NCBI GenBank assembly: GCA_017465575.1
Contig: JAFTVX010000016.1
Span: forward strand, 1-53,986
Direction: 5' to 3'
DNA length: 53,986 nt
From: Alistipes sp.
GTDB lineage: Bacteria; Bacteroidota; Bacteroidia; Bacteroidales; Rikenellaceae
The notes under the pieces were generated by a model that saw only the letters and a list, made by a program, of their open reading frames with translations, was not told where the DNA came from and did not search any database. The position numbers and the translations under genes were made by a program. Shown in pieces: positions 16,220 through 30,739 of this stretch (position 1 is its first letter; each line of letters begins with the position of its first letter).

Positions 16220-17704
16220 ATGAACGAAAACTTTCTGTTTGTAGGAGCTTTGTTGCTCTTTGCTGCCGTGCTTGCAGGTAAGGCGGCATATCGTCTGGGA
16301 GCGCCAGCCCTGTTGCTCTTCCTTGGTGTAGGTGTGTTGTTTGGCTACAACGACTTCGTTGAGTTCCACTCCTACGACTTTGCGGGCTTCATCGGTATGG
16401 TTGCGATGTGTATCATCCTCTTCTCGGGCGGTATGGACACCAAGTTTTCGGAGATTCGGCCGGTGTTAGCACCCGGCGTTGTTATGGCAACGCTGGGTGT
16501 AGCACTCACCGCCCTTATCGTCGGAGGCTTTATCTACCTGCTCGCCCCGTGGCTCGGTGTTGAGATTAGTTTTACTATGGCGCTGTTGCTTGCTGCCACG
16601 ATGTCATCTACCGACTCTGCCTCGGTATTTAGCATCCTGCGCACCAAGAAACAGGGTCTTATGCAGAACCTACGCCCTCTGCTTGAGTTGGAGAGTGGTA
16701 GTAACGACCCCATGGCATATATCCTTACTGTTGTGCTTGTTAGCCTTGTTAAGGATGGTGCAGAGTTGGAAATTTCGTCGGCTCTTAGCACCTTCTTTAT
16801 CCAGATGGCACTCGGTGCTATCTATGGCTACGGCTTTGGTCGAGTCACGGTGTGGATTATGAACCATATCAACATTCGTAGCACACCCTCGCTCTACTCC
16901 GTATTGCTCTTGGCGTGTGCCTTCTTCACCTTTTCGTTCACGACCATCACCCATGGTAACGGCTACCTGGCGGTATATATCGCAGGTCTTGTTGTGGGTA
17001 ACCACCGTATCGCCTACCGCAATATGCTCGGTACATTCTTCGACTCGTTCACTTGGCTGCTGCAGATTATCCTCTTCCTCTGCCTCGGCCTTATTGTCGA
17101 TGTCCACGAGCTTATTAAGCCCGAGGTGCTCTTTATGGGTCTTGCAATAGGTATCTTTATGATATTCCTCGCCCGCCCCGTGGCCACGGTAATATCGTTG
17201 CTCCCCTTCCGCAAGTTTAGCGGCAAGGCGCGTGTATATGTGTCGTGGGTAGGTCTGCGTGGCGCTGTGCCTATCATCTTCGCCATATACCCTATCACGC
17301 AGGGTGTCGAGGGTGCGGAGTATATATTTAATGTGGTGTTCCTCGTAACCATCGTCTCGCTACTTATTCAGGGTACTACGGTCAGCGGTATGGCCAACTG
17401 GCTCGGCCTTTCGTATGAGGAGCCCGATGCCACCTTTAAGCTCACCGTGCCCGACCATATACGCAGCCAGTTTACCGAGATTGGCGTTACGGCATCGATG
17501 CTCCATAGTGGCGACACGCTGAAGGATATCCACCTTCCGGGCAATACGCTTGTTGTCTTGGTCTACCGCGACAATAAGTACTTTGTGCCCAAGGGCTTTA
17601 CACAACTCCACCCCGGCGATAAACTGCTTGTGGTGTCGGACAACAACGAGGAGTTGCTCACCAAGGTCAAAACCCTCGGCATCAAGCATATTATTGAGGT
17701 GTAA
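16220..17704 (+). CDS. Potassium or sodium/proton antiporter (NhaP2/CvrA type)
   Basis: 494 residues. A CPA1-type membrane domain of about 12 helices (1-390) carries the ion-site stretch MSSTDSASVFSIL and LLELESGSNDPMAYILT (the ND of the second contains the acidic ion ligand). It is followed by a soluble RCK-C/TrkA-C domain (about 395-494) that usually binds a regulatory ligand. This layout matches NhaP2/CvrA, which exports K+ or Na+ in exchange for protons. The gene ends in a strong terminator and appears monocistronic. The choice between K+ and Na+ cannot be made from sequence alone. Confidence 0.92.
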   Translation: MNENFLFVGALLLFAAVLAGKAAYRLGAPALLLFLGVGVLFGYNDFVEFHSYDFAGFIGMVAMCIILFSGGMDTKFSEIRPVLAPGVVMATLGVALTALIVGGFIYLLAPWLGVEISFTMALLLAATMSSTDSASVFSILRTKKQGLMQNLRPLLELESGSNDPMAYILTVVLVSLVKDGAELEISSALSTFFIQMALGAIYGYGFGRVTVWIMNHINIRSTPSLYSVLLLACAFFTFSFTTITHGNGYLAVYIAGLVVGNHRIAYRNMLGTFFDSFTWLLQIILFLCLGLIVDVHELIKPEVLFMGLAIGIFMIFLARPVATVISLLPFRKFSGKARVYVSWVGLRGAVPIIFAIYPITQGVEGAEYIFNVVFLVTIVSLLIQGTTVSGMANWLGLSYEEPDATFKLTVPDHIRSQFTEIGVTASMLHSGDTLKDIHLPGNTLVVLVYRDNKYFVPKGFTQLHPGDKLLVVSDNNEELLTKVKTLGIKHIIEV

Positions 17705-17953: not shown

Positions 17954-18083
17954 AATTTGTCGTCAAAAGTCGTGAGATGTGGTCTATCGCAAGAGAATCC
18001 CCCAAGGGATAGTACGAAATAGTACAGCCCTTGGGGGATTACTATTGGGATAGGCCGCAGATTGCGGCTTTTCACGGCAAATT
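17954..18083. repeat. Long hairpin abutting the M3 peptidase stop codon (copy 1)
   Basis: The left arm starts AATTTGTCGTCAAAAG and the right arm ends CTTTTCACGGCAAATT. The arms pair as RNA with several G-U pairs. The tip is an inner hairpin, CCCCCAAGGG/CCCTTGGGGG, around GTAC...GTAC. The right arm overlaps the stop codon (18082-18084) of the minus-strand peptidase gene. Confidence 0.85.
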
Positions 18084-20199
18084 ACTTGAGGTTCATCTGG
18101 TCAATAAGCGCCTTAGTCTTGGGCTTGTGGCCGCGGAAGTTCTTGTAGAGAACCATAGGATGCTTGTGTGCGCCCTTCTCAAGTACCTCGTGGCGGAACT
18201 TGCCTGCTACCTCCTGGCTGAAGATACCCTTCTGCTTGAAGTAAGAGAAGGCATCTGCGGCGAGCACCTCTGCCCACTTATAGCCATAGTAACCAGCAGC
18301 ATAGCCACCGCTAAAGATGTGAGTGAATGCGGTGCCCATAGCGGTACCCTCAACAACGGGAAGCACCTGTGTGGGCTGCAAAGCCTTGCCCTCGAATGCG
18401 AGGACATCGCCAGTATAAGGCTCGGTGATAGTATGCCAAGCCATATCGAGCATACCGAACGAGAGCTGACGAACATTGTAGTAAGCAGCGAGGTAGTTCT
18501 TCGCAGCTACAATCTTCTCGATAAGTTCTGCGGGCATAGCCTCGCCAGTCTGGTAGTGCTTAGCCCAGAGGTCGAGATACTCCTTCTCGGTAGCCCAGTT
18601 CTCCATAATCTGTGAGGGGAGCTCCACGAAGTCGCGCTTAACAGATGTGCCGTTGATAGCCTCGTACTTACCGCGAGCAAGGATGCCGTGAAGACCGTGG
18701 CCAAACTCGTGGAGGAAGGTAGTGAACTCATCGAATGTGAGCAATGAGGGTGTGTTAGCTGTGGGCTTTGTGAAGTTCATCACGAGCTGCACCAAGGGGC
18801 GCTGCTCCTTGCCGTCCTTAACCTTAACACCACGGAACTCGGTCATCCAAGCACCCTGACGCTTCGACTCGCGGGGGAAGAAGTCGAGGTAGAGGATAGC
18901 CATAAGCTCACCCTTGTCGTCGCGTACCTCATATACGGTAGCCTCGGGGTGGTAGGTCTCGATGTTGTCAACAGCGGTGAAAGTGAGGCCATAGAGCTTG
19001 CCAGCAAGCATAAATACGGCATTCTTAACATTCTCAAGCTGCAAGTAGGGCTTAATCTGCTCGTCGTTGATGGCATACTTAGCCTCTTTATACTTCTCGT
19101 TGTAGTAGCCGAAGTCCCAAGACTCCAACTCGCCCTCGAAGCCCATCGACTTAGCATACTCCTTGATAGCCGCTACATCCTTCTTGGCATACTCCAAGGT
19201 TGCCTTGTTGAGCTCCGCAAGGAAGCCATTTACAGTCTTGGTGCTCTCGGCCATACGGTCCTCCAAAACATAGTCGGCATAGCACTTGTAGCCAAGCAAG
19301 TTGGCAATCTTGAGGCGAAGCTCAGCGATACGACGGATAATCTCGCGGTTGTCCGAATCGCCACCGATACCACGGGTGTTGTAAGCACGATACAAAGCCT
19401 CCTTGATGTCGCGCTGTGTCGAGTAGGTCATAAAGGGGCTATAGCTGGGGGCGTGGAGCGTTACGGTCCAGCCCTTCTCGCCACGAGCCTCAGCCTCGGC
19501 AGCAAGACCCTCCTTTACGAAGTCGGGCAACTCCTCAACCTTTGCAGGGTCGGTAATGTTGTACGAGAAGGCGTTGGTAGCAGCCAAAGCGTTCTGACCA
19601 AACTTCAATGTGAGCTGCGAAAGCTCCGACGAGTACTCACGATAGAGCTCCTTATCCTTACCCTCGAGCAAGGCGCCTGAGCGTGCAAAGCCCTTGTAGG
19701 TATCCTCCAAAAGCTGCATATCCTCCTCGTCGAGGTTGAGCTTCTTACGCTGGTCGTAAACAGCCTTGATACGAGCAAAGAGCTCGGGGTTGAGCGAGAT
19801 ATCGTTCTCCAACTCGGTGAGCTTAGGAGTGATGTTCATCGCAATCTGCTGCATCTGGTCAGAGGTAGAGCAGCTATTCAAAACGAAGAATACGCCAGAG
19901 ATACGGCCGAGCAACTCGCCCGACTCGGTCATGGCCAAGATGGTGTTCTCGAAGGTGGGAGCCTCGGGGTTTTTCACAATAGCCTCAACCTCGGCACGGT
20001 TTACGGCAATAGCGTAGTCGAAAGCGGGCTCATAGTGAGCAAGCTCAATCTCCGAGAAGGGAGGGGTCTGGTAGGGGGTATCCCACTCCTCAACGAGAGG
20101 GTTGCCCACCAAAGACTCAGGAAGGCGTACACCGCCATTCTCTGGCAGCTCAGCAGCTGCGAGTGTCAAAGCTGACATAATTACTGATGTTGCAGTCAT
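18082..20199 (-). CDS. M3 family metallopeptidase (peptidyl-dipeptidase Dcp-like), copy 1
   Basis: 705 residues, the usual Dcp/oligopeptidase A length. The zinc site is H497-EFGH-H501 in LHEFGHGLHG, with the Glu ligand expected about 25 residues later. The N-terminus (MTATSVIMSALTLAAAE) resembles a weak signal peptide without a positive charge. NPLVEEWDTPYQTPPFSEI opens the mature part as in other Bacteroidota Dcp proteins. It should cut short peptides, probably removing dipeptides, in the periplasm or cytoplasm. It lies 39 bp behind a paralogue of the same family, so the pair is probably one operon driven from the palindromic promoter near 22510. A long hairpin overlaps its stop codon. Confidence 0.93.
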   Translation of the reverse strand: MTATSVIMSALTLAAAELPENGGVRLPESLVGNPLVEEWDTPYQTPPFSEIELAHYEPAFDYAIAVNRAEVEAIVKNPEAPTFENTILAMTESGELLGRISGVFFVLNSCSTSDQMQQIAMNITPKLTELENDISLNPELFARIKAVYDQRKKLNLDEEDMQLLEDTYKGFARSGALLEGKDKELYREYSSELSQLTLKFGQNALAATNAFSYNITDPAKVEELPDFVKEGLAAEAEARGEKGWTVTLHAPSYSPFMTYSTQRDIKEALYRAYNTRGIGGDSDNREIIRRIAELRLKIANLLGYKCYADYVLEDRMAESTKTVNGFLAELNKATLEYAKKDVAAIKEYAKSMGFEGELESWDFGYYNEKYKEAKYAINDEQIKPYLQLENVKNAVFMLAGKLYGLTFTAVDNIETYHPEATVYEVRDDKGELMAILYLDFFPRESKRQGAWMTEFRGVKVKDGKEQRPLVQLVMNFTKPTANTPSLLTFDEFTTFLHEFGHGLHGILARGKYEAINGTSVKRDFVELPSQIMENWATEKEYLDLWAKHYQTGEAMPAELIEKIVAAKNYLAAYYNVRQLSFGMLDMAWHTITEPYTGDVLAFEGKALQPTQVLPVVEGTAMGTAFTHIFSGGYAAGYYGYKWAEVLAADAFSYFKQKGIFSQEVAGKFRHEVLEKGAHKHPMVLYKNFRGHKPKTKALIDQMNLK

Positions 20200-20238
20200 A
20201 ATTAGGTAATATTCTTTTAGTTAGTTAGTTAGTTTCGA

Positions 20239-22488
20239 TTACTTAGCCTCTGGCTTTTCGGGAAGTCTTAGAATAGGCTTCTCGGCATTTGAGGGTCTTT
20301 GAGGTCTCATAGCGGGGCGTACGGGCTTAGGCTCAGCCTTCTCGACAACCTCTACTGAGTCCACCTCAACCACGGGCTCCTTCCATAGGCCACGCGCCTT
20401 GAGCATAGGTGTCTTGTCGGGGTCGGCACCGCGGAACTTGCGGTACATCTCCATGCCAGGCTTCTGACCACCCTGCGCCAAGAGGTCGTGGCGGAAGCTG
20501 TGGGCAAGCTCCTTGTCGCAGAGGTCGTGCGAGAGCTTGAAGGCCTCGAAAGCATCCTTATCCAACACCTCTGCCCAAAGGTAGAAGTAGTAACCCGAAG
20601 AGTAGCCACCGTTGAAGATGTGCGAGAAGTAGGTGTAGCGGTAGCGAGGCTCAATCTGAGGAATGAGGCCACGGCGAGTAGCAAGGTTGTACTTCTCGAA
20701 GTCGTTGATATCCATATCCGACCACTTCTCGAGGGTGTGGATATCCATATCGATAAGCGCCGCTGCTGCCAACTCTGTGGTGATAAAGCCCTGATTGAAG
20801 AGCGATGCCTTCTGTATTTTCTCGATAAGGTTGTCAGGAATTACATCGCCCGAAGAGTAGTGCGTTGCGTAGACCTTCATAATCTCAGGCTCGAATGCCC
20901 AGTTCTCCATAATCTGTGAGGGGAGCTCTACGAAGTCGCCCTCGACCTCTGCCAAGCCACGGTAGCGAACATCGGCAAAGAGGAAGTGCAGTGCATGGCC
21001 AAACTCGTGGAACATAGTCTCCGCCTCGTCGAACGAGAGCAACGAGGGGGTGTCGCCCACGGGAGGTGTGAAGTTGCAGACGATGCCCACAACGGGAGCT
21101 ACACGCTTGCCATCCTCGTAGCGCTGCTCGGTAAAGTAGCCACACCAAGCACCACCGCTCTTCGACTTGCGGGGGTGGGGGTCGATATAGAGGACACCGA
21201 GGTGCGAATCATCGACATCCAAAACCTCGTATACCGAGCACTCGGGGTGATACTTGGGAGCAGAAATGGGGCGGAAGGTGATGCCGTAAAGGCGGTTAGC
21301 CAGATAGAACATACCGCTACGCACATTGTCCAACGAGAGGTACTGGCTTACGGCAGCCTCGTCGAGCTGATACTTCGCCTTGCGAACCTTCTCGGCATAA
21401 TACCACCAATCCGACTTCTCGAACTCCTGGCCGGGGTAGTCCTTCTGGAACATCTCGTTCATAACCTCCAACTCAGCCTTAGCTGACTCCAAGGCAGGCT
21501 CCCAAATCTCGTCGAGGAGGTTGTATACTGCCGTGGGGTTACCCGCCATCTGGTCGGCGGTAACATAGTGAGAGTAAGACTTATAGCCGAGCAAGTTAGC
21601 CTTCTCGATACGGAGGCGTGCCATCTCCTTGGCAAGCTCCTTATTGTCGAACTCGTTGTCGTTGTTGCAACGCATCAAATAGCCGTTGTAAAGCTGACGG
21701 CGAAGGTCGCGGTCGGGCGAGTAGGTGAGGAAGGGAAGCATCGAGGGCTTGTCGAGGGTAAAGACATAGCTATCTGACTTACCCATAGCGGCGGCAGCCT
21801 CCTGAGCCTGATTGCGAATGCTCTCGGGGAGGTCCTTAACCTGCAAAGCATTAAGCTCCAAGAAGAACGCACCATTCTCGGCAAGGAGGTTATTGCCAAA
21901 CTTGATGGTGAGTGCCGTAAGCTCGGCGTTGATAGCCTTAAGGAGCTCCTTTGCCTCGCCCTCAAGCAAAGCACCCGAGCGAACGAACTTGTTGTAGGTC
22001 TTCTCCACAAGGCGCATCTGCACCTCGTCGAGCTTCAAGCTCAGGCGCTTGTCGTAGACAGCCTTAACCTTCTCGAAGAGGGCATCGTTGAGCATAATCG
22101 CGTTGTAGTGCGACTCAATACGGGGCATCATCTCGTTCTGCACCTCCTGCATCTTCTCGTCGAGGTCCGACGACGAAAGCATGCTGAAGATAAGACCTAC
22201 CTCCGATAGCTTGATACCCGCGTTATCCATAGCAAGGATAACATTCTCGAACGAAGGCTCCTCCTCCGATGCTACAATTGCCTCAATCTCGGCATTGTGC
22301 ATCTCGATAGCTGCCTCGAAGGCGGGCTTATAGTGCTCGGCCTTGATTTCATCAAACGGAGGGATACCCATCTCGGTATTCCACTCGTCAAGAAGAGGGT
22401 TGCCCGTAGCGGGCTTTTCGCTCTTCGAACACGAAATAGTGAGTGTCATAACAAACAATAATGACGATAATAGAAAAAGTCGTTTCAT
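20239..22488 (-). CDS. M3 family metallopeptidase lipoprotein (Dcp-like), copy 2
   Basis: 749 residues. The signal peptide ends in a lipobox (LTISC, Cys about residue 20), so this copy is lipid-anchored in the periplasm. The zinc site is H494-EFGH-H498 (FHEFGHALHF). It shares the family opening NPLLDEWNTEMGIPPFDEI with copy 1. The last 45 residues are an unusual Pro/Glu/Lys/Arg-rich tail (KPVRPAMRPQRPSNAEKP) that copy 1 lacks. It is the first gene of the two-gene run. Anchored and perhaps soluble forms of one peptidase type may divide peptide breakdown between them; this is inference. Confidence 0.94.
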   Translation of the reverse strand: MKRLFLLSSLLFVMTLTISCSKSEKPATGNPLLDEWNTEMGIPPFDEIKAEHYKPAFEAAIEMHNAEIEAIVASEEEPSFENVILAMDNAGIKLSEVGLIFSMLSSSDLDEKMQEVQNEMMPRIESHYNAIMLNDALFEKVKAVYDKRLSLKLDEVQMRLVEKTYNKFVRSGALLEGEAKELLKAINAELTALTIKFGNNLLAENGAFFLELNALQVKDLPESIRNQAQEAAAAMGKSDSYVFTLDKPSMLPFLTYSPDRDLRRQLYNGYLMRCNNDNEFDNKELAKEMARLRIEKANLLGYKSYSHYVTADQMAGNPTAVYNLLDEIWEPALESAKAELEVMNEMFQKDYPGQEFEKSDWWYYAEKVRKAKYQLDEAAVSQYLSLDNVRSGMFYLANRLYGITFRPISAPKYHPECSVYEVLDVDDSHLGVLYIDPHPRKSKSGGAWCGYFTEQRYEDGKRVAPVVGIVCNFTPPVGDTPSLLSFDEAETMFHEFGHALHFLFADVRYRGLAEVEGDFVELPSQIMENWAFEPEIMKVYATHYSSGDVIPDNLIEKIQKASLFNQGFITTELAAAALIDMDIHTLEKWSDMDINDFEKYNLATRRGLIPQIEPRYRYTYFSHIFNGGYSSGYYFYLWAEVLDKDAFEAFKLSHDLCDKELAHSFRHDLLAQGGQKPGMEMYRKFRGADPDKTPMLKARGLWKEPVVEVDSVEVVEKAEPKPVRPAMRPQRPSNAEKPILRLPEKPEAK

Positions 22489-22537: not shown

Positions 22538-23251
22538 ATGCAACTATTTTATGCCCCCGAAATTTCACTTCCCCTTTACACACTCACCGAGGAGGAGTCG
22601 AAACACTGTGTAAGAGTGCTTCGTATGGTGGAGGGTGACGAGCTACATTTGACCGATGGTCGAGGCACACTTCATCGCTGTAAAGTGGTGGATGCCAACG
22701 CAAAACGCTGTACGGTAGAGATTGTCGAGAGCCACGCAGAATACGAGAAACTGCCCTACCGCTTGGTGATGGCAGTAGCCCCCACAAAAATTATCGATCG
22801 TTTCGAGTGGTTTTTGGAAAAAGCCACGGAAGTGGGTGTTTCGGAGGTCTACCCCATCGAGAGCTTCCACAGCGAGCGCCGACAGATTAAGCACGACAGA
22901 GAGGAGAAGGTAATCACCGCAGCGGTCAAGCAGTCGCTAAAAGCGTACCACCCCACGCTCCACGAACTCACGCCCCTAAAGCAGGTTTTGACGATGCCCT
23001 TCGATGGCGATAAGTTTATCGCCCACTGCAACTCGTCGTTTGGCGAGAGGGAGTATCTTGGCAATTTGGTAAAAAAAGAGCGTGATACGCTAATTTTAAT
23101 TGGTCCAGAGGGCGATTTTTCGGAAGAAGAGATTAACTTTGCACTACAAAACGGCTTTAAGCCTATTTCGTTGGGCAAGCAGCGCTTGCGCACCGAGACA
23201 GCAGCCGTGGTTGCAACGGTCATTGTGTCGACTATTAACTCACTACAATAA
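22538..23251 (+). CDS. rsmE: 16S rRNA m3U1498 methyltransferase
   Basis: 237 residues, normal for RsmE, which methylates U1498 of 16S rRNA with SAM. An N-terminal PUA-like domain (about 1-70) is followed by the SPOUT domain, whose knot motifs LIGPEGDFSEEEI (about residue 188) and SLGKQRLRTETAAVV (about 217) are intact. The start ATG lies 25 bp after a TAACTTTG box. The stop codon is 29 bp before the membrane-complex genes with no terminator between them, so the complex may be read from this promoter. Confidence 0.96.
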   Translation: MQLFYAPEISLPLYTLTEEESKHCVRVLRMVEGDELHLTDGRGTLHRCKVVDANAKRCTVEIVESHAEYEKLPYRLVMAVAPTKIIDRFEWFLEKATEVGVSEVYPIESFHSERRQIKHDREEKVITAAVKQSLKAYHPTLHELTPLKQVLTMPFDGDKFIAHCNSSFGEREYLGNLVKKERDTLILIGPEGDFSEEEINFALQNGFKPISLGKQRLRTETAAVVATVIVSTINSLQ

Positions 23252-23280: not shown

Positions 23281-25266
23281 ATGTTGTTCTATGTGCTTTT
23301 GGCAGCAGTTGTTGCGATTGTTGCCATCTTCCTCACTCCCGAGCGTAAGAAGGTGTGGACAGCAACGGCAATCACATCGCTCTTGGCGGTGGGAGCTATC
23401 GCCCTTGCAGTCTATGCATTTGCGGTGGGAGAGGTAAAACTATTCTCATTCCGCACCGCAATCTTCGGATATGAGTATTTCGCAGTCGATAGACTCTCGG
23501 CGCTATTCCTTGTGATTATCGCCATTGCATCGGTTGCTACGCTAATCTATTCACGAGGCTATCTTGCCGGCTACTTCGGACGCTACTCGTCGGCACACTT
23601 CTCGTTGCACTACACCGCATTGGTGACAATGGTGGCATCGATGATGTGCGTTGTCTTGGCAAGTGGCGGTTTCTCGTTCCTCTTCTCGTGGGAGCTGATG
23701 ACCATCGCCTCGTTTATCCTTATTCTGTTTGAGGCAAACCGTCAGGAGACCCGCCGTGCAGCACTCAACTACCTGGTGATGATGCATATAGGCTTTATGT
23801 TCCTCGTTGCGGGCTTTGTAATGTTGTTCAACGCTACGCACTCCTCGTCGTTCGATGCTATCGAGTACTACTTCAAGTTGGGCAATCCCCTACCTCTGTT
23901 CGTAGTCCTCTTTATTGGTTTTGGTATGAAGGCGGGTCTGTTCCCTATGCATATTTGGTTGCCCGAGGCACACCCCGCAGCACCCTCACACATATCGGCT
24001 ATTATGTCGGGTGTGATGATTAAGACGGGTATCTACGGCATTGTGCGCATTATGCAGGCAATTGACAACGACACCGAACTACTCTACACCATCGGTCTTA
24101 TCGTATTGTTGTCGGGTATCGTAACGGGTCTTTGGGGCGTTATCTTCGCAGCTATGCAGAACGATGTTAAGCGCTTGTTGGCATACTCAAGTATTGAGAA
24201 TATCGGTGTGATACTCATCGGTTTGGGCATCGCTGCCGTGGGTCACGCTGGTGGTAGCGACCTTATCGGTATGTGCGGTATGTGTGGTGCATTGCTTCAC
24301 ACCGTAAACCACTCGTTGTTCAAGACGATGTTGTTCTTCGGTGCGGGTAATATCTACTCGAAGATGCACACTACGACGATGAACCGTATGGGTGGCATCG
24401 CCAAGCATATGCCTCTTACGGCTGCCCTTATGGCATTTGCCGTGGCGGCAATCTGCGCTCTGCCTCCTCTTAATGGCTTTGTCTCGGAGTTGTTTATTTA
24501 TATAGGTATGTTCAACGGCATCAGCGATGGCCACGAGGTGCTCTACTCGGTTGCTGGTATTATCGCCCTATCGCTTATCGGTGGTATCGTTGTTCTCGCC
24601 TTCACGAAGCTCTATGGCGTGGTATTCCTCGGCTCACCCCGCTCACACGAGGTTGCCGAGACACAGGAGGTTGATGGTTGCCGTATCGGCGCTATGGCGA
24701 TTCCTGCGGTCTTTATCCTCTTTATCGGCTTGTTCCCACAGTATGCCATTCTGCCTATCGCGCGTGTTGCCGAGGCGGTTACGGCAAGCGACAATACGAT
24801 GGTTATCGACCATATGATGCCCACTTTGCAGACTATGAGCCTTGTTTCTTGGGTGCTTATCGCTGTTATTGTGGCTCTCTTCTTATTGAAGCGCCGAGCA
24901 CAGCGCTCACGCACCATCACCGAGGGTCCTACTTGGGGTTGTGGCTTTACGACACTTAACACCAAGATGCAGTATACTGGCGAGTCGTTCTCTGAGGGGT
25001 TGGAAAATATCGGCAAGCCCTTTATGAAGGATACCGTGGATGGTCGCACCATCGACAAAAATGAGATATTCCCCACCCGCCACAGCTACGACATTCGCCA
25101 CAAGGATAAGGTAGACTCGTTGCTTGGTCGTTGGTGGATGGCACTTATGCACCGCCTCAACGAGTATATTATGCGATTGCGCACTGGTCGTGTAAATAGC
25201 TACATCACCTTTGCGTTGGTATTCCTCGTTGCCGTGTTGGTGCTCACTTTGCTTGGTATTATGTAA
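23281..25266 (+). CDS. Ehr-type complex: HyfB/NuoL-like membrane subunit
   Basis: 661 residues and about 16 membrane helices; an antiporter-like subunit of the complex I / group 4 hydrogenase superfamily. The residues of the proton path are kept: E138 in FSWELMT (helix 5), K217 in FGMKAGLFPMHIWLPEAHP (helix 7) and K248 in GVMIKTG (helix 8). The C-terminal part (about 560-640) is a soluble stretch between helices (GPTWGCGFTTLNTKMQYTGE), as in HyfB. It starts a run of five nearly abutting genes that encode the membrane arm and the large subunit; the sixth follows after a 211-bp gap. It should move protons or sodium, driven by whatever the peripheral subunits do. Confidence 0.93.
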   Translation: MLFYVLLAAVVAIVAIFLTPERKKVWTATAITSLLAVGAIALAVYAFAVGEVKLFSFRTAIFGYEYFAVDRLSALFLVIIAIASVATLIYSRGYLAGYFGRYSSAHFSLHYTALVTMVASMMCVVLASGGFSFLFSWELMTIASFILILFEANRQETRRAALNYLVMMHIGFMFLVAGFVMLFNATHSSSFDAIEYYFKLGNPLPLFVVLFIGFGMKAGLFPMHIWLPEAHPAAPSHISAIMSGVMIKTGIYGIVRIMQAIDNDTELLYTIGLIVLLSGIVTGLWGVIFAAMQNDVKRLLAYSSIENIGVILIGLGIAAVGHAGGSDLIGMCGMCGALLHTVNHSLFKTMLFFGAGNIYSKMHTTTMNRMGGIAKHMPLTAALMAFAVAAICALPPLNGFVSELFIYIGMFNGISDGHEVLYSVAGIIALSLIGGIVVLAFTKLYGVVFLGSPRSHEVAETQEVDGCRIGAMAIPAVFILFIGLFPQYAILPIARVAEAVTASDNTMVIDHMMPTLQTMSLVSWVLIAVIVALFLLKRRAQRSRTITEGPTWGCGFTTLNTKMQYTGESFSEGLENIGKPFMKDTVDGRTIDKNEIFPTRHSYDIRHKDKVDSLLGRWWMALMHRLNEYIMRLRTGRVNSYITFALVFLVAVLVLTLLGIM

Positions 25267-25288
25267 CTTTCGTAAATAAAGAGAAACA

Positions 25289-26206
25289 ATGGCTATCAAA
25301 CTACTTAACACTCTGATTATGATTGCGGTAGCACTCTCTATTACGGGAGTTATCAACCGCACACGCGCTATGTTGGCGGGTCGTAAGGGTATTCGTTTCT
25401 TCCAGCATGTGATGAATGTTCGCTTGCAGCTGCGCAAGGGCTCGGTATACTCTACCACCACTACCCTTCTGTTCCGCATCGCACCCTGTGTCTATCTCGG
25501 TGCTGCGATGATTGCCTTTCTGTTTATCCCAGTGGCAAATCTTGAGCCTATCTGCTCGTTCCACGGCGATATTGTCTTTGTTGCATACTTGCTCGCCCTC
25601 TCGCGTGTAGCTCTTATCCTCGCTGCGATGGATACAGGTAGCTCGTTCGAAGGTATGGGTGCTGCCCGTGAGGCGCTCTACGGCGCATTGGTCGAGCCTG
25701 CGTTGATGATGGCGATGGCAACATTGGCGCTCTTCTGCGGCTACTCGTCGTTTGCCGACATCTTCTCGATGGCGCAGGAGCTGGATACCAACCTCACTAT
25801 CGTACTGCTGTTGGTTGCCTATGTATTCGTTATCATTATGTTTATCGAGGCTGGCCGTGTGCCTGTTGATGACCCCAAGACCCACCTCGAGCTCACGATG
25901 ATTCACGAGGTTATGTGCCTCGACTTCTCGGGTATCGACCTTGCGATGATTCATATCGCGGGCTGGTTGAAGAATGCCACCTTGGCGATGATTGCAGCAA
26001 ATGCCGTTGCTGTCGTCTTCTGCTTCAAGTGGTGGTTCGCAGCACCGCTTGCTGTGCTCGGTACGGGTATCGCCATCGGCGTTGTCGAGTCGTTGCGTGC
26101 CCGCAACAAGCTCTCGCGCAACATCACCTACATTCTCACCATCGTGGCTATGTCGGCTTTGGTGTTGCTCATAGGTTTCCTTCTTATCCAAAACATTGAA
26201 ATCTAA
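25289..26206 (+). CDS. Ehr-type complex: HyfC/NuoH-like membrane subunit
   Basis: 305 residues, about eight helices. It is the subunit that links the membrane arm to the peripheral arm in complex I and group 4 hydrogenases. The family loops are intact: SSFEGMGAAREALYGALVEPAL (about residues 118-139) and EAGRVPVDDPKTHLELTMIHE (about 192-212), both acidic and placed at the quinone/proton junction in complex I. It starts 22 bp after the HyfB-like gene and ends 6 bp before the next. Preservation of these loops shows selection on coupling even though the catalytic subunits have lost their metal sites. Confidence 0.93.
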   Translation: MAIKLLNTLIMIAVALSITGVINRTRAMLAGRKGIRFFQHVMNVRLQLRKGSVYSTTTTLLFRIAPCVYLGAAMIAFLFIPVANLEPICSFHGDIVFVAYLLALSRVALILAAMDTGSSFEGMGAAREALYGALVEPALMMAMATLALFCGYSSFADIFSMAQELDTNLTIVLLLVAYVFVIIMFIEAGRVPVDDPKTHLELTMIHEVMCLDFSGIDLAMIHIAGWLKNATLAMIAANAVAVVFCFKWWFAAPLAVLGTGIAIGVVESLRARNKLSRNITYILTIVAMSALVLLIGFLLIQNIEI

Positions 26207-26212
26207 CGCCTT

Positions 26213-26839
26213 ATGACTCTATCGCTAATTATCCTATATGTGCTTACGCTCCTCTATCTCTCGATTGCCGAGCGTTTCCGCAACCACACCACAATTCTTG
26301 CTGTGCAGGGCTTGTTGCTCTTTGGCATCGCCATTGCGCGCCTCCACGAGTTCCACCCCGTCGAGATGACCGTGATTATCATCGAGACCCTTGTATTCAA
26401 GGCTATCGTGATTCCCGCAATCCTAATGACCGTTATCCACCGCACGAAGATTAACCGCATACACTCCTCGTCGACGCAGTTTGGTGCCTTGGTGATGTCT
26501 ATCATTGCGCTTATTGCAAGCTGTACTATTACCTACTATATGGCAGACGAGCGCACCGATATGATTTTCTTCGGTGTGGCACTCTATGCGTTGCTTTCGG
26601 GACTTATCCTTATTGTGATGCGTAAGCGTATCTTCGCCCATTTGGTCGGTTTCCTTGTTATCGAGAATGGTGTCTTCCTCTTCTCGATGGCTATCGGTGT
26701 CGAGTTGCCGATGCTTATCAACCTCGCTATTATGCTCGACATCCTTATCTCGATTCTTATTCTCGGCACCTTTCTCAGCCGTGTGGACAACGATATCCAC
26801 ACCGACGAGAGCGATGCCCTAACCTCGATTAAAGACTAA
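26213..26839 (+). CDS. Ehr-type complex: HyfE-like membrane subunit
   Basis: 208 residues, about seven helices. It matches HyfE, which contains a NuoK-like part. The buried glutamates expected in this family are present in ETLVFKAIVIP (about residue 58) and FLVIENGVFLF (about 152). The C-terminus is acidic (DNDIHTDESDAL). Gene spacing of 6 bp before and 4 bp after indicates tight co-translation with its partners. It should form part of the ion path. Confidence 0.9.
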   Translation: MTLSLIILYVLTLLYLSIAERFRNHTTILAVQGLLLFGIAIARLHEFHPVEMTVIIIETLVFKAIVIPAILMTVIHRTKINRIHSSSTQFGALVMSIIALIASCTITYYMADERTDMIFFGVALYALLSGLILIVMRKRIFAHLVGFLVIENGVFLFSMAIGVELPMLINLAIMLDILISILILGTFLSRVDNDIHTDESDALTSIKD

Positions 26840-26843
26840 CGCT

Positions 26844-28253
26844 ATGTTGACATATATCATCGTTTCGCTCTTGATTGCCATCGCTCCGCTTGCCTCACGC
26901 TCGGAGCGTATGACCAACCTTATCGCCACGCTCTTTGCCTTGGTGCAGGTTGCCTCGGTGGCTCTGCTCTTCGTCTTTGACCGCTTCGATATGGCGTTGC
27001 TCACTATCTTCCGTACCGACACCCTCGCCGTGGTGTTCCATGTGTTGATGATCGCGGTGCTTATCTTCTCGCTTATCCACTCGTCGTCGTACCTGCGTGC
27101 CGAGAAGGTTACCACACGCTCATATAACGCCTACTATACGCTTCTGATGCTTTTGGCATTGTCTATCACTTGCGTATATTACTCTTATAACCTTGCGATG
27201 ACCTGGGTATTCCTCGAGCTTACGACAATCTGCTCGGCAGGTATCATCTATCACCGTGAGTTTGAGCAGTCGTTGGAGGCTACTTGGAAGTATATCTTCG
27301 TATGCTCTACGGGTATTGCTATGGCATACCTCGGCATCTTGCTTCTCTCGACCGTGGCTGTCGAGGGCACACTCGACTACGCAGCCCTGAAGAGCGTTAT
27401 CTCGGAGGGCAACCCCCTATATCTGAAGCTCGCCTTCCTGCTTATCGTTATCGGTTATAGCTGTAAGATGGAGGTTTTCCCACTCTATACCGTGGGTGTC
27501 GATGCCAACTATGCAGCCCCCGCACCCGCCTCGGCATTTATCTCTACGGCGTTGGTCAACGCAGGCTTTGTGTCTATTATGCGTATCTACACGCTATATG
27601 CCTCTTCCGAAGTATTTGCTTGGGCGCGTAATGTGCTGATTCTTATCGGTATTTTGTCGTTGGCGGTAGGTGCTATGTTCCTCCGCCGCACGAACAATTA
27701 TAAGCGCTTCTTGTCGTACTCGACCGTGGAGAATATGGGTATTGTGGCTATCGGTATGGGTATCGGTGGTGTAGCGTTGTGGGCTGCCGTCTTCCATGTT
27801 ATGTGCCACACATTTATCAAGAGCTCAATGTTCTACCATGTGGGTGTTATGCGCCATGTCTACGATAGTTATAGCATCAACCGCATCGGTAACTATATGA
27901 ATATCAACCGCATCGGCGCTATCGGCATCGTTGTGGGCACACTCCTTCTCTTGGCATTCCCTCCCTCACCCCTCTTCGTTACCGAGGTTATGCTCTTCTC
28001 GGAGATTGCCTCGCAGGGTCGCTGGTGGTTGCTTATCTTGATGGTGGTGCTTATGTGCGTTGTGCTATATGCCATCTGGTCGCGTTCGTTGCGCCTCAAC
28101 TACCACTCAAATCAGGACGAGTTGCACCTCTCGGAGGTCAACCGTCGCCTCTCGTACTCGGCATCGGTGTTGCTCCTTATCGCTGTTGCGGTGGGCATCT
28201 GGCAGCCCGATATGCTGAAGGATATTATTGACTCAATCGTAAACCTCCAATAG
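26844..28253 (+). CDS. Ehr-type complex: HyfF/NuoN-like membrane subunit
   Basis: 469 residues and about 14 helices; the second antiporter-like subunit. The proton-path residues are E125 in VFLELTTIC and K208 in GYSCKMEVFPLYTVGVDANYAAP. It ends 1 bp before the start of the large-subunit gene. Together with the HyfB-like subunit it gives the complex two antiporter-like modules, as in hydrogenase-4, against one in the smaller Ech/Hyc types. Confidence 0.92.
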   Translation: MLTYIIVSLLIAIAPLASRSERMTNLIATLFALVQVASVALLFVFDRFDMALLTIFRTDTLAVVFHVLMIAVLIFSLIHSSSYLRAEKVTTRSYNAYYTLLMLLALSITCVYYSYNLAMTWVFLELTTICSAGIIYHREFEQSLEATWKYIFVCSTGIAMAYLGILLLSTVAVEGTLDYAALKSVISEGNPLYLKLAFLLIVIGYSCKMEVFPLYTVGVDANYAAPAPASAFISTALVNAGFVSIMRIYTLYASSEVFAWARNVLILIGILSLAVGAMFLRRTNNYKRFLSYSTVENMGIVAIGMGIGGVALWAAVFHVMCHTFIKSSMFYHVGVMRHVYDSYSINRIGNYMNINRIGAIGIVVGTLLLLAFPPSPLFVTEVMLFSEIASQGRWWLLILMVVLMCVVLYAIWSRSLRLNYHSNQDELHLSEVNRRLSYSASVLLLIAVAVGIWQPDMLKDIIDSIVNLQ

Positions 28254-28254
28254 T

Positions 28255-29772
28255 ATGAACCTATATCTTAAGACAAACAATATAGCCTCGGCAGTAAAGC
28301 TCGCCGACATACCCACGGTGGAGTACCTCGACCTCTACAACGACCTTGTGGAGCGTATGAAGGAGCAGCGCTACCATATAGCCCACTACTTCGCTACGGA
28401 GGTTGAGAAGGGGCTCAAGTTCTTTATCTTGTTGCTCGACGACGAGACCAGCGAGGTGCTTATCTCATCGTTCCAGCCCGACTACTACTCCGAAGAGGGC
28501 TTGGCATCGCTTACGGCTGTGCATCAGCAGTTCCACCCCTTCGAGCGCGAGATGCACGAGCTCTACGGCATTAAGTTCAACGGCCACCCCTGGCTCAAGC
28601 CCTTGCGCTTCAGCCACGACCGTCGCGATAAGCAGTCTACAATGGATAGCTACCCATTCTACACCATCGAGGGCGATGAGCTCCACGAGGTGAATGTGGG
28701 CCCTATCCACGCAGGTATCATCGAGCCTGGCGCCTTCCGCTTTATCTGCAATGGCGAGCAGGTGCTGCACCTTGAGATAGCGTTGGGCTATCAGCATCGT
28801 GGCGTCGAGGGCGAGATGGTGCGCAACCAAAACCGCCTGCGCCAGACGCTAATCTCGGAGAGCACGGCTGGCGACACCGCCGTAGGTCACGCCACGGCAT
28901 ACGCCGAGCTTGTTGAGAAACTCTCGGACAAGACAATATCGAGCGACCTAAAGCGTGAGCGCGTTGTTGCTATCGAGCTTGAGCGTATCGCTATGCACCT
29001 TGCCGACACTGGCGCTTTGGCTACCGATATCGGCTTCCAGCTCTATCAGGTGGCTTGCGAGGCATTGCGTACCGTAACGATTAACACCACACAGGCGTGG
29101 TGTGGTAACCGCTTTGGTAAGAGCCTTATCCGCCCCTTTGGCAGCAACTTCCCCTTGACCGAGGCGAAGATTGAGACTATCCGCAAGAATATCGCCGATG
29201 TGCGCCGTCGCTACAACGAGGTACGCACCGACATCCTCGAGGCGCCCACCCTACTTGCACGATTTGAGCAGTGTGGCTTGGTGCCTACCGAGGAGATGTG
29301 GCGCATAGGTGGCGTAGGTATGGCAGCGCGTTCGAGCAACCTTAAGCGCGATATCCGTGCTACGCACCCCTCGGGCTTCTATGCCGAGGAGTTTAACCAC
29401 GAGCCTGTCGTAAAGCAGGATTGCGATGTTTTGTCGCGCCTTGCAACTCGAATGGACGAGGTGTTGCAGAGTGCCGACTACATCGAGAACTTGCTCAAGG
29501 AGTATAAGCCGTCGAGCGAGATTTCCGCACCCGACTACGAGGCTAAGCTCTCGTCGGAGTCGCTATCGTTCTCGGTTGTCGAGGGCTGGCGTGGCGAGAT
29601 TTGCCATGTGGCACTCACCGACAAGGAGGGCAATATCGCGAAGTATAAGATTAAGGACCCCAGCGTGCACAACTGGCTCGGACTTGCTATCGCCGTGCGC
29701 TCGGAGGGCATCTCAGACTTCCCGATTAACAACAAGAGTTTTAATCTATCGTACTGCGGTCATGATTTATAA
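28255..29772 (+). CDS. Ehr-type complex: HyfG-like large subunit without NiFe ligands
   Basis: 505 residues. Residues 1-125 are NuoC-like and 145-505 are NuoD/HycE-like, starting VGPIHAGIIEPGAFRF as in group 4 hydrogenases. In those enzymes a RxCGxC motif near the N-terminus and DPCxxC at the C-terminus hold the NiFe centre. Here the first reads STAGDTAVGH (203-212) and the second FNLSYCGHDL (496-505), so all four cysteines are replaced; C501 lies one position off. The protein ends right at this motif with no cleavable tail, consistent with no NiFe maturation. It cannot be a NiFe hydrogenase. This is the hallmark of energy-converting hydrogenase-related (Ehr) complexes. The real substrate is unknown. 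Confidence 0.93.
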   Translation: MNLYLKTNNIASAVKLADIPTVEYLDLYNDLVERMKEQRYHIAHYFATEVEKGLKFFILLLDDETSEVLISSFQPDYYSEEGLASLTAVHQQFHPFEREMHELYGIKFNGHPWLKPLRFSHDRRDKQSTMDSYPFYTIEGDELHEVNVGPIHAGIIEPGAFRFICNGEQVLHLEIALGYQHRGVEGEMVRNQNRLRQTLISESTAGDTAVGHATAYAELVEKLSDKTISSDLKRERVVAIELERIAMHLADTGALATDIGFQLYQVACEALRTVTINTTQAWCGNRFGKSLIRPFGSNFPLTEAKIETIRKNIADVRRRYNEVRTDILEAPTLLARFEQCGLVPTEEMWRIGGVGMAARSSNLKRDIRATHPSGFYAEEFNHEPVVKQDCDVLSRLATRMDEVLQSADYIENLLKEYKPSSEISAPDYEAKLSSESLSFSVVEGWRGEICHVALTDKEGNIAKYKIKDPSVHNWLGLAIAVRSEGISDFPINNKSFNLSYCGHDL

Positions 29773-29983
29773 GAAGATGTTTTAATTTTATTAAATAAGT
29801 TAAACCATTGAGGCTGACAAATGTTTCGGATTCTTTGAGGTTCTTTTTGATATCTTTTGATTTGTAAGTTTTGAAAATAGCCCGCTATTACCTGCAACTT
29901 CCAAATAAAAATCTAAACAAAAATAACTCTCAAATAATCTCGAAATAAAATTAAAACAGCTTCTTTTACTAACACCTAATGCT
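29773..29983. other. AT-rich gap inside the Ehr-type gene cluster
   Basis: 211 bp between the large- and small-subunit genes, where every other junction in the cluster is 22 bp or less. It is far richer in A and T than the genes around it. I see no open frame that is convincing, no repeat family member and no exact TAnnTTTG box; TATCTTTTG and TAAGTTTTG (about 29850-29875) are near misses on the plus strand. Confidence 0.6.
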
Positions 29984-30739
29984 ATGTTATTTGGTAAGAT
30001 AAAGATTCTGCGTAGCCACGGCTGGCAGTATATCCCCGATTTGAAGAATGTAACACTCACCGAGGAGTTTCGTGGCTTCCCGCTCCTTACCGAGACCAAG
30101 GATAAGGGCGATTTGGAGCGTGCAGCGAAGCTCTGCCCCACAGGCGCACTAACCACCGAGCCTCTGACACTCGATATGGGCAGGTGCCTCTTCTGTGGCG
30201 AGTGTGCTCGTTGCGCACCGAAGAATATCCGTTTTACGAACAACTACCGCATCGCTGCCACACGCCGCGAGGACTTGGTGGTTAAGGCGGGTCAGACAGA
30301 GCCTGTCTTCTGCCGCGAGGCCGTGCGTAGCGATATCGCCAAATATTTCGGTCAGACCCTCGAGCTTCGTGAGGTCTCGGCAGGTGGCGACTGCTCGGTG
30401 GAGATGGAGCTTAACGCCACGGGCAATGTCAACTTCGACTTCGGTCGCTATGGCGTAGGCTTCACCGCCTCGCCCCGCCACTCCGATGGTTTGGTGCTCA
30501 CAGGCCCCATAAGCTCGAATATGGCGGAGGCATTGGACATCTGCTGGAACTCTATCGCCGAGCCCAAGATACTCGTTGTATGCGGCTCTGAGGCCATCTC
30601 TGGTGGCTTGTTTGCCGATAGTCCCGCCGTCGACCGTTCGTTCCTCGACAAATATAAGGTCGACCTCTGGCTCCCTGGCGCCCCTACGCACCCTATGTGC
30701 TTTATTGACGGCATTTCACGCCTACGCGAGAAGAAGTAA
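29984..30739 (+). CDS. Ehr-type complex: fused ferredoxin / NuoB-like small subunit without proximal-cluster ligands
   Basis: 251 residues. Residues 1-95 are a HyfH-like ferredoxin domain with one likely [4Fe-4S] set: C68, C71, C74 (CLFCGEC) and C51 (CPTGA); C77 is left over because the first ferredoxin motif is missing. Residues about 105-251 are NuoB/HyfI-like (FTASPRHSDGLVLTGPISSNM). The four cysteines that hold the proximal cluster are all changed: the CxxC pair is D136-CSV-139 (C137 is shifted), GDCA is GSEA with E203, and PGCPP is PGAPT with A233. In hydrogenase-4 these two parts are separate genes. An electron could reach the ferredoxin cluster but has no visible way onward. Confidence 0.9.
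   Translation: MLFGKIKILRSHGWQYIPDLKNVTLTEEFRGFPLLTETKDKGDLERAAKLCPTGALTTEPLTLDMGRCLFCGECARCAPKNIRFTNNYRIAATRREDLVVKAGQTEPVFCREAVRSDIAKYFGQTLELREVSAGGDCSVEMELNATGNVNFDFGRYGVGFTASPRHSDGLVLTGPISSNMAEALDICWNSIAEPKILVVCGSEAISGGLFADSPAVDRSFLDKYKVDLWLPGAPTHPMCFIDGISRLREKK

Follow-up and report, generated by a model that had tools for sequence, protein, structure and literature searches.

The gene set described here raises the question of what might drive a complex I-type membrane arm when the hydrogenase-like subunit associated with it has lost its metal ligands. This bears on a central question in bioenergetics, namely the dependence of the complex I membrane arm on electron delivery at the N2 cluster. 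The window, i.e., the whole stretch of 53,986 nucleotides that we analyzed, comes from an Alistipes sp. genome (1.95 Mb, 47 contigs, 94% complete) and carries on its plus strand an operon of six genes, all of them open, which were annotated with Pfam and NCBIfam profiles. In order, these code for: EhrA (23281..25266, 661 aa), a HyfB-like antiporter-type membrane subunit (PF00361, E=2.8e-54; NCBIfam hydrogenase 4 subunit B, 509 bits against a cut-off of 667); EhrB (25289..26206, 305 aa), a HyfC- and NuoH-like membrane subunit (PF00146, E=3.4e-24); EhrC (26213..26839, 208 aa), a HyfE-like membrane subunit (NCBIfam hydrogenase 4 membrane subunit, E=7.6e-12, below cut-off); EhrD (26844..28253, 469 aa), a HyfF-like antiporter-type membrane subunit (PF00361, E=1.3e-36); EhrL (28255..29772, 505 aa from ATG to stop), a hydrogenase- and NuoCD-like large subunit; and EhrS (29984..30739, 251 aa), a fusion of a ferredoxin-like HyfH with a NuoB/HyfI-like small subunit (PF01058, E=1.3e-15; matching the PDB chains 6cfw_J, 7z0s_G and 7z0s_F). 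Among the matches listed (the best 25 for two of the subunits), the NCBIfam matches of all six fall below the curated cut-offs. The first five genes (23281–29772) are spaced by 22 bases or less, and ehrS follows 211 bases later, across an AT-rich spacer of 211 bp (29773–29983); the two genes lie close together in many relatives, with gaps of about 200–670 bp in some (e.g., L006, L088 and L018).

A group 4-like large subunit devoid of NiFe ligands, the linked antiporter-like, NuoH-like and HyfE-like membrane subunits together with a small subunit, and the placement of EhrL in trees among the large subunits of Ehr-bearing lineages identify this operon, by sequence, as an Ehr (energy-converting hydrogenase-related) complex, which is what the sequence-only reading had proposed. 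The rows of these trees are relatives found by search rather than the Ehr reference sequences of the literature. At least 572 relatives of EhrL were found, and the best 80 of these were kept; among the matches listed, the closest named ones are from Alistipes sp. MAGs (81–82% identity), and near-identical versions of its two signature motifs occur in Bacteroidota, Spirochaetota, Verrucomicrobiota, Planctomycetota, Acidobacteriota, Myxococcota, Geomonas, Ignavibacteriota and Melainabacteria, besides others. In some loci of the same genus, open frames of 800–980 aa at EhrL give the appearance of EhrD–EhrL fusions; we rejected these as read-through in one frame, with EhrD lying in another.

EhrL matches the Pfam families Complex1_49kDa and Complex1_30kDa and, by sequence, solved chains of HycE, MbhL and the 49-kDa subunit of complex I. 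We aligned it with MAFFT in a set of 57 EhrL rows (the window and 56 relatives) along with E. coli HyfG, HycE and NuoCD, leaving out the partial L055 and also L053, from a genome (G173) of the same family, in which an in-frame TAA interrupts EhrL. Residues 203–212 (28861..28890) read STAGDTAVGH in place of RVCGIC...H, and the last residues of the protein, 496–505 (29740..29769), read FNLSYCGHDL in place of DPCxxCxxR, both precisely as first read. The pairing of RVCGIC with STAGDT is free of gaps and sets A205 and T208 on the two cysteines; that of DPCYSCTDR with NLSYCGHDL sets S499 and G502 on the cysteines, with C501 falling on the serine of the motif. HMMER alignments to HycE (7z0s_E, profile E=1.7e-51) and MbhL (6cfw_L) agree with MAFFT at both motifs. 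The seven cysteines of EhrL (165, 268, 283, 340, 390, 450 and 501) form no CxxC, which in the wider row set occurs anywhere in EhrL only in L096 and L128. The four NiFe cysteines are found together in none of the 57 rows, window included, so that the recovery of these cysteines at equivalent positions, which would have overturned the initial claim of lost ligands, did not materialize. As 103 positions are in addition at least 97% conserved across the same 57 rows, sequencing error is excluded. A NiFe site hence cannot form in EhrL. It might be countered that alignment error has disguised a normal complex I module or group 4 [NiFe] hydrogenase, for which the strong overall homology to HycE, MbhL and NuoD could be adduced; however, the gap-free motifs, the lack of any CxxC, the 57 rows and the failure to find HypD (see below) make this next to impossible, and we regard it as refuted by the sequence.

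Maturation proteases cleave true hydrogenases at the end of the C-terminal motif, and EhrL terminates at the residue aligned with the last one of that motif, as does NuoD. A search for hyp maturation genes had been suggested as a check on the loss of the NiFe site; it was run for HypD (PF01924), which was not found in the window's genome at 94% completeness, and which is present in 8 of the 43 Ehr-bearing genomes searched, the window's genome being one of the 43. The features of group 4 [NiFe] hydrogenases, viz. the RxCGxC and DPCxxC motifs and, as far as HypD is concerned, the maturation system, were accordingly not found here.

The former active-site pocket also departs from that of complex I. 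Residues H38 and Y87 of Nqo4, which we take to be the quinone ligands, align with P158 and G206 of EhrL in a sequence alignment with positions counted by hand, and on this alignment the quinone-ligand pair is absent from EhrL. The same role is stated for a tyrosine, Y144, of the Yarrowia enzyme in a passage of PMC8042128; we infer that it corresponds to Nqo4 Y87. The position of Nqo4 R84, taken to be R141 of the Yarrowia mutants deficient in N2, almost never holds Arg in Ehr rows, where S, T, N or some other residue takes its place.

The sequence-only reading had described the loss in terms of the large subunit; it does hold there, but it is not confined to it. In EhrS of the window, alignment with HyfI and NuoB places D136, V139, E203 and A233 at the cysteine positions of the N2/proximal [4Fe-4S] cluster: residues 136–140 (30389..30403) read DCSVE in place of the CNACE-type motif of HyfI, with D136 and V139 replacing cysteines, E203 (30590..30592) stands for the former third ligand, and A233 (30680..30682) for the fourth, the GCPP of HyfI-like proteins having become GAPTHP. 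The three cysteines of the first ferredoxin motif (N6a type) are also lost. What persists is a single [4Fe-4S] motif of the N6b type, with C51, C68, C71 and C74 (30134..30205) as its ligands. With the N2 ligands and one ferredoxin-type motif gone, electron delivery to the old pocket is probably not the driver that had earlier been left unnamed. A second small subunit carrying N2 and encoded elsewhere could have made good the loss; this was rejected as a profile search of the window's genome recovered no further PF01058 match.

To gauge how widespread this condition is, we scored EhrS in 133 rows, with 18 of the 151 EhrL rows being without a scored small subunit. Upon removing duplicates (L143=L001, L075=L015, L082=L024, L088=L026, L068=L038 and L069=L048), 128 distinct rows remained; the duplicates other than L143 are still included in the membrane-residue and neighborhood counts given below. 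The distribution is bimodal: all four cysteines are kept in 45 rows, whereas the other 83 lack them at 136, 203 and 233, with not a single row intermediate at these three positions. In the N2-less Bacteroidota clade to which the window belongs (82 rows), the replacements are themselves constrained, with D at 136 in 78 rows, D (69) or E (12) at 203 in 81, and N (69) or A (12) at 233 in 81; position 139 is variable and still a cysteine in 47. Outside this clade, 45 of the 46 scored rows keep the N2 ligands. The four N6b cysteines are invariant on either side (82/82 N2-less and 45/45 N2-keeping rows), and the window's clade usually has one ferredoxin motif. An N2-less Ehr on a contig labelled Phycisphaerae (L078) nests among the Bacteroidota, perhaps reflecting misbinning or a transfer.

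The EhrL pocket is nearly indifferent to this divide: G206 is present in 80 of 81 N2-less and 45 of 45 N2-keeping rows, and D207, S499, Y500, G502 and D504 in all 81 and all 45, respectively, with H212 and residue 503 being more variable than the other pocket positions. Thus, the constraint on the pocket seems to be independent of electrons from N2.

The one N2-less row outside the window's clade in the first row set, L114, is from Planctomycetales. A search of 59 genomes, its own and those of relatives, yielded nine long Ehr small subunits, of which L176 (the same as L114), L177, L178, L179 and L182 (cut before position 233) are N2-less, and L180, L181, L183 and L184 keep all the N2 ligands. 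L179 has D/A/D/N at the four positions, as in most Bacteroidota, and otherwise resembles its own relatives. In this second N2-less group, neither ferredoxin motif has been lost. Groupings were tested on a 73-row tree of EhrL, of which the N2 columns are not part: placing every N2-less row in one clade is rejected (lnL lower by 227, p-AU 6e-9), a single clade of the Bacteroidota N2-less rows fits better than the free quick tree, and one of the five other N2-less rows is not rejected (p-AU 0.673); as the groups were chosen after the motif pattern had been seen, these p-values are weaker as formal tests. The N2-keeping L145 lies at the base of the Bacteroidota N2-less rows in FastTree and inside them in the quick tree; a constrained tree that puts it outside them has a likelihood 46.7 units higher than the quick tree. 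On these three tests, the N2 ligands were lost at least twice, in Bacteroidota and near Planctomycetales, with recurrent replacement. Neither the loss in a large Ehr clade nor its recurrence was found in the Ehr literature searched, which was covered in part.

The membrane arm tells a different story from the N2 site. In the loci with readable genes (25–33 N2-less and 30–42 N2-keeping), the following residues are conserved with and without N2: E138, K217, K248, K348 and E403 of EhrA; E136, D194 (E once), H199, E201, E207 and D212 of EhrB; K63, E151 and D176 of EhrC; and E125, K208, K326 and E381 of EhrD, the last being E in 37 and K in 5 of 42 N2-keeping rows. These conserved charges and the profile matches bear out the earlier description of the four membrane partners as intact, and the arm keeps its proton-path residues in both groups. 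One membrane change, as judged from the alignment, does accompany N2 loss: residue 215 of EhrD (NuoM H241) is H in 41 of 42 N2-keeping rows, and Y in 17, F in 9 and H in 8 of 34 N2-less rows, with the window having Y. Between L063 and L064, EhrL and EhrS each have a dN/dS ratio of about 0.07; EhrS of the window compared with either of these gives about 0.1, and the other computed pairs, several of which have high dS, reach up to about 0.3. Such values indicate that EhrL and EhrS are under purifying selection.

This has a bearing on whether the operon might simply be a non-functional relic of a hydrogenase operon in slow decay. In favor of decay, one might cite a passage of PMC13194489, an evolutionary study of Geobacter that terms Ehr non-functional, the in-frame stop of L053, and the at least eight genomes of the same genus without EhrL. 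Yet the six open genes, the 103 near-invariant EhrL positions in 57 rows, dN/dS of 0.07 to about 0.3, the retained membrane charges and the recurrence of the N2-ligand replacement in a second lineage render a relic very improbable. Indeed, the conservation of Ehr argues against that recent verdict, which was given for Geobacter.

Ehr complexes are themselves known. Passages of PMC6349859, PMC10284858, PMC10432482, PMC4378227 and PMC7304191 describe them as lacking the cysteines or residues for Ni and Fe, those of PMC10284858 and PMC4378227 give their function as unknown, and the available accounts place them in Geobacter, Methylacidiphilum, Nitrospira, Sulfobacillus and Melainabacteria. The relatives compared here, including Geomonas and Melainabacteria, share with the window the NiFe-less large subunit, the AGDT...GH and KSFNLSYCG.DL signatures and the same kinds of membrane subunit, the Nitrospira, Sulfobacillus, Methylacidiphilum and Geobacter systems having been compared by description only. 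However, EhrS from Geomonas (L115 and L140), Acidobacteriota, Spirochaetota and Melainabacteria keeps the four N2 cysteines, whereas that of the window's clade is without a cysteine at three of these positions; intact proximal-cluster ligands, common in Ehr and, in the portions of the literature consulted, not stated as defining it, are thus missing from the window's EhrS. This suggests that at least two machines go under the name Ehr, and that a single function should not be presumed for both. E. coli hydrogenase 4 and formate hydrogenlyase have membrane subunits of the same kinds in the same order and, like the window, a HyfG-like large subunit with fused NuoC and NuoD parts; in contrast to these two (HyfB, C, E, F, G, H and I; HycE), the window's operon lacks HyfA, HyfD and HyfJ, has HyfH fused to HyfI, and is devoid of the NiFe and proximal-cluster ligands. 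With the Q-module and membrane arm of respiratory complex I (NuoB, CD, H, I, K and L/M/N), it shares sequence families and the membrane proton-path residues, but it lacks the N2 ligands, quinone ligands of the H38/Y87 type and NuoE/F/G. Finally, antiporter-type subunits are common to the window's complex, Mrp and DAB. In Mrp and DAB these subunits work without electrons; Mrp antiporters consist of the MrpA–G set, need their other subunits and have no peripheral arm. The window's complex differs from both in its NuoH-like subunit and peripheral arm, its genome has no DabA match, and by operon content it is not an Mrp.

Lacking NiFe, N2 and quinone ligands, the complex has the usual hydrogenase or quinone-reductase route cut, and we infer strongly that it would neither evolve H2 nor reduce quinone by the complex I route; with N2 and the quinone ligands gone, electrons likewise have no path left from the one surviving cluster into the pocket, in which no known redox ligand remains. 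The complex probably runs otherwise than the usual redox pump. We propose that its most likely function is that of a gated secondary cation/proton antiporter, a statement to which, taken as a whole and with both the antiport and the gate going beyond the ligand loss that the sequence shows, we would give a probability of about 0.45. Briefly, the membrane arm might act as a secondary cation/proton antiporter or a gated proton path, as in Mrp, drawing on gradients set up by other pumps, such as that to which the RnfC encoded in the window's genome might belong. The peripheral arm would then be the gate, in which the single Fe–S cluster and the Asp/Glu site that has replaced N2 could respond to a cation, a ligand or the redox state; the signal might then pass through the conserved EhrL pocket to the NuoH-like subunit. 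Consistent with such a gated antiporter are the constrained N2 replacements, the repeated loss, the nearly unchanged pocket, the missing quinone ligands, the kept membrane residues, the low dN/dS, RnfC and the want of PF00361 or PF01058 matches outside the operon in the window's genome. Likewise, in the pertinent passages of PMC8042128, complex I from Yarrowia mutants devoid of N2 is assembled but fails to reduce quinone, and an excerpt of PMC6688271, in which ehrABCDLS is listed, suggests a role in pH homeostasis for another Ehr; that idea is hence already known. Weighing against the proposal are the dependence of Mrp on its other subunits and its want of a peripheral arm, the dispensability of Ehr within the genus, and the cysteine still found at EhrS 139 in 47 of 82 N2-less rows.

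The retention of the N6b motif, and of both ferredoxin motifs in the second N2-less group, suggests that some redox role remains and counts against the antiporter. It could thus be argued that the complex is still a redox-driven pump, with electrons reaching the EhrL pocket via, for instance, an unusual cofactor bound at the Asp/Asp/Asn site, a cluster whose ligands are not cysteines or an unlinked partner protein. Such a pump would account for the N6b motif being intact in 82 of 82 rows and accords with a passage of PMC6349859 in which Ehr is suspected to link charge translocation to redox reactions; in a part of PMC7894505, the Ehr proteins of Geobacter sulfurreducens are more abundant on formate, though its Geomonas relatives L115 and L140 keep N2. 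Set against these are the missing cysteines at three of the four positions in every N2-less row, with that at 139 surviving in only 47 of 82, the D/V/E/A of the window itself, the lack of another PF01058 protein in its genome, and the failure to recognize a partner oxidoreductase among the ORF families common to at least 5 of the 67 loci studied (see below). On balance, we consider a redox pump unlikely.

Returning to the gated antiporter, the arm and pocket have outlasted the N2 ligands, which were removed and recurrently replaced on at least two occasions; this amounts to a natural uncoupling experiment. If the complex still moves ions, the coupling machinery would be drivable by protonation or ligand binding alone. 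A bolder form of this, which we advance tentatively as a possible rather than a probable history, is that two lineages independently made an electron-free ion-translocating machine by converting the N2 site into an acidic Asp/Asp/Asn cation or proton site that gates or drives the membrane arm via the near-unchanged pocket.

The genomic setting offers some further pointers. The window's genome gave no PF00361 match beyond the operon, so that neither complex I nor Mrp left a trace in this search, and we set both aside as candidates elsewhere in the genome. Of 17 genomes of the same genus, nine have Ehr and eight have no EhrL match; three further PF00361 proteins are found in three of the nine and in three of the eight, and the remaining five of the eight have no PF00361 match at all. 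From this pattern, Ehr is dispensable, is not simply the antiporter of the genus and is not exclusive of other PF00361 proteins. We also compared the neighborhoods of 67 loci of more than 9 kb (29 N2-less, 33 N2-keeping and 5 unscored), judging ORF families by position and sequence, with Pfam annotation reserved for the HTH–EIIA regulators and SulP. Most of the shared families listed reduce to genes of the operon, to antisense frames or to synteny within Alistipes.

Regulators combining HTH_17 with a PTS EIIA domain lie near 20 Ehr operons, 19 of them N2-keeping and one N2-less (five verified by Pfam). The EIIA domain has a nitrogen-type phosphotransferase role, hinting at control of Ehr by such a system. 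Outside Bacteroidota, these regulators were seen at L109:4220-4891, L115:2124-2798, L133:4252-4941, L114:1509-2303 and L123:177-881.

Seven of the 67 loci have a SulP anion transporter no more than about 10 kb from Ehr (all seven verified by Pfam), as against an expectation of about 0.4 derived from 28 match rows over about 92 Mb of sequence in 19 of these genomes. One N2-less locus (L089) combines SulP with a carbonic-anhydrase-like gene below the Pfam cut-off, and an N2-keeping one from a Planctomycetaceae MAG (L123:3782-12368) has EhrL and EhrS beside DabA, two PF00361 proteins and a SulP–P-II fusion. DAB complexes are thought to accumulate bicarbonate or hydrate CO2 without electrons, and by analogy Ehr might couple ion flow to a non-redox reaction, most concretely CO2 hydration or bicarbonate accumulation. 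The neighbors just named would fit such a role, but DabA had no match in the 54 Bacteroidota Ehr genomes searched, and we set it aside as an Ehr partner; moreover, SulP is equally frequent with N2 (4/33) and without it (3/29), none of the seven SulP loci is from Alistipes, the association was noticed post hoc, and SulP carries other anions too. We deem such a reaction quite unlikely, and treat the SulP, DabA and carbonic-anhydrase neighbors as leads towards ion or inorganic-carbon homeostasis, not as proof.

Closer to the window's operon, an rsmE-type rRNA methyltransferase ORF, recognized by eye (22538–23251), is on the same strand, separated from ehrA by 29 bases; six Alistipes-type loci share an ORF family in a similar position, which may be the same gene. 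Further upstream, again by eye, two M3-type peptidase ORFs with the HEFGH motif lie in tandem on the minus strand (18082–22488), and an ORF for an NhaP-like monovalent cation/proton antiporter (16220–17704) is situated about 5.6 kb from the operon.
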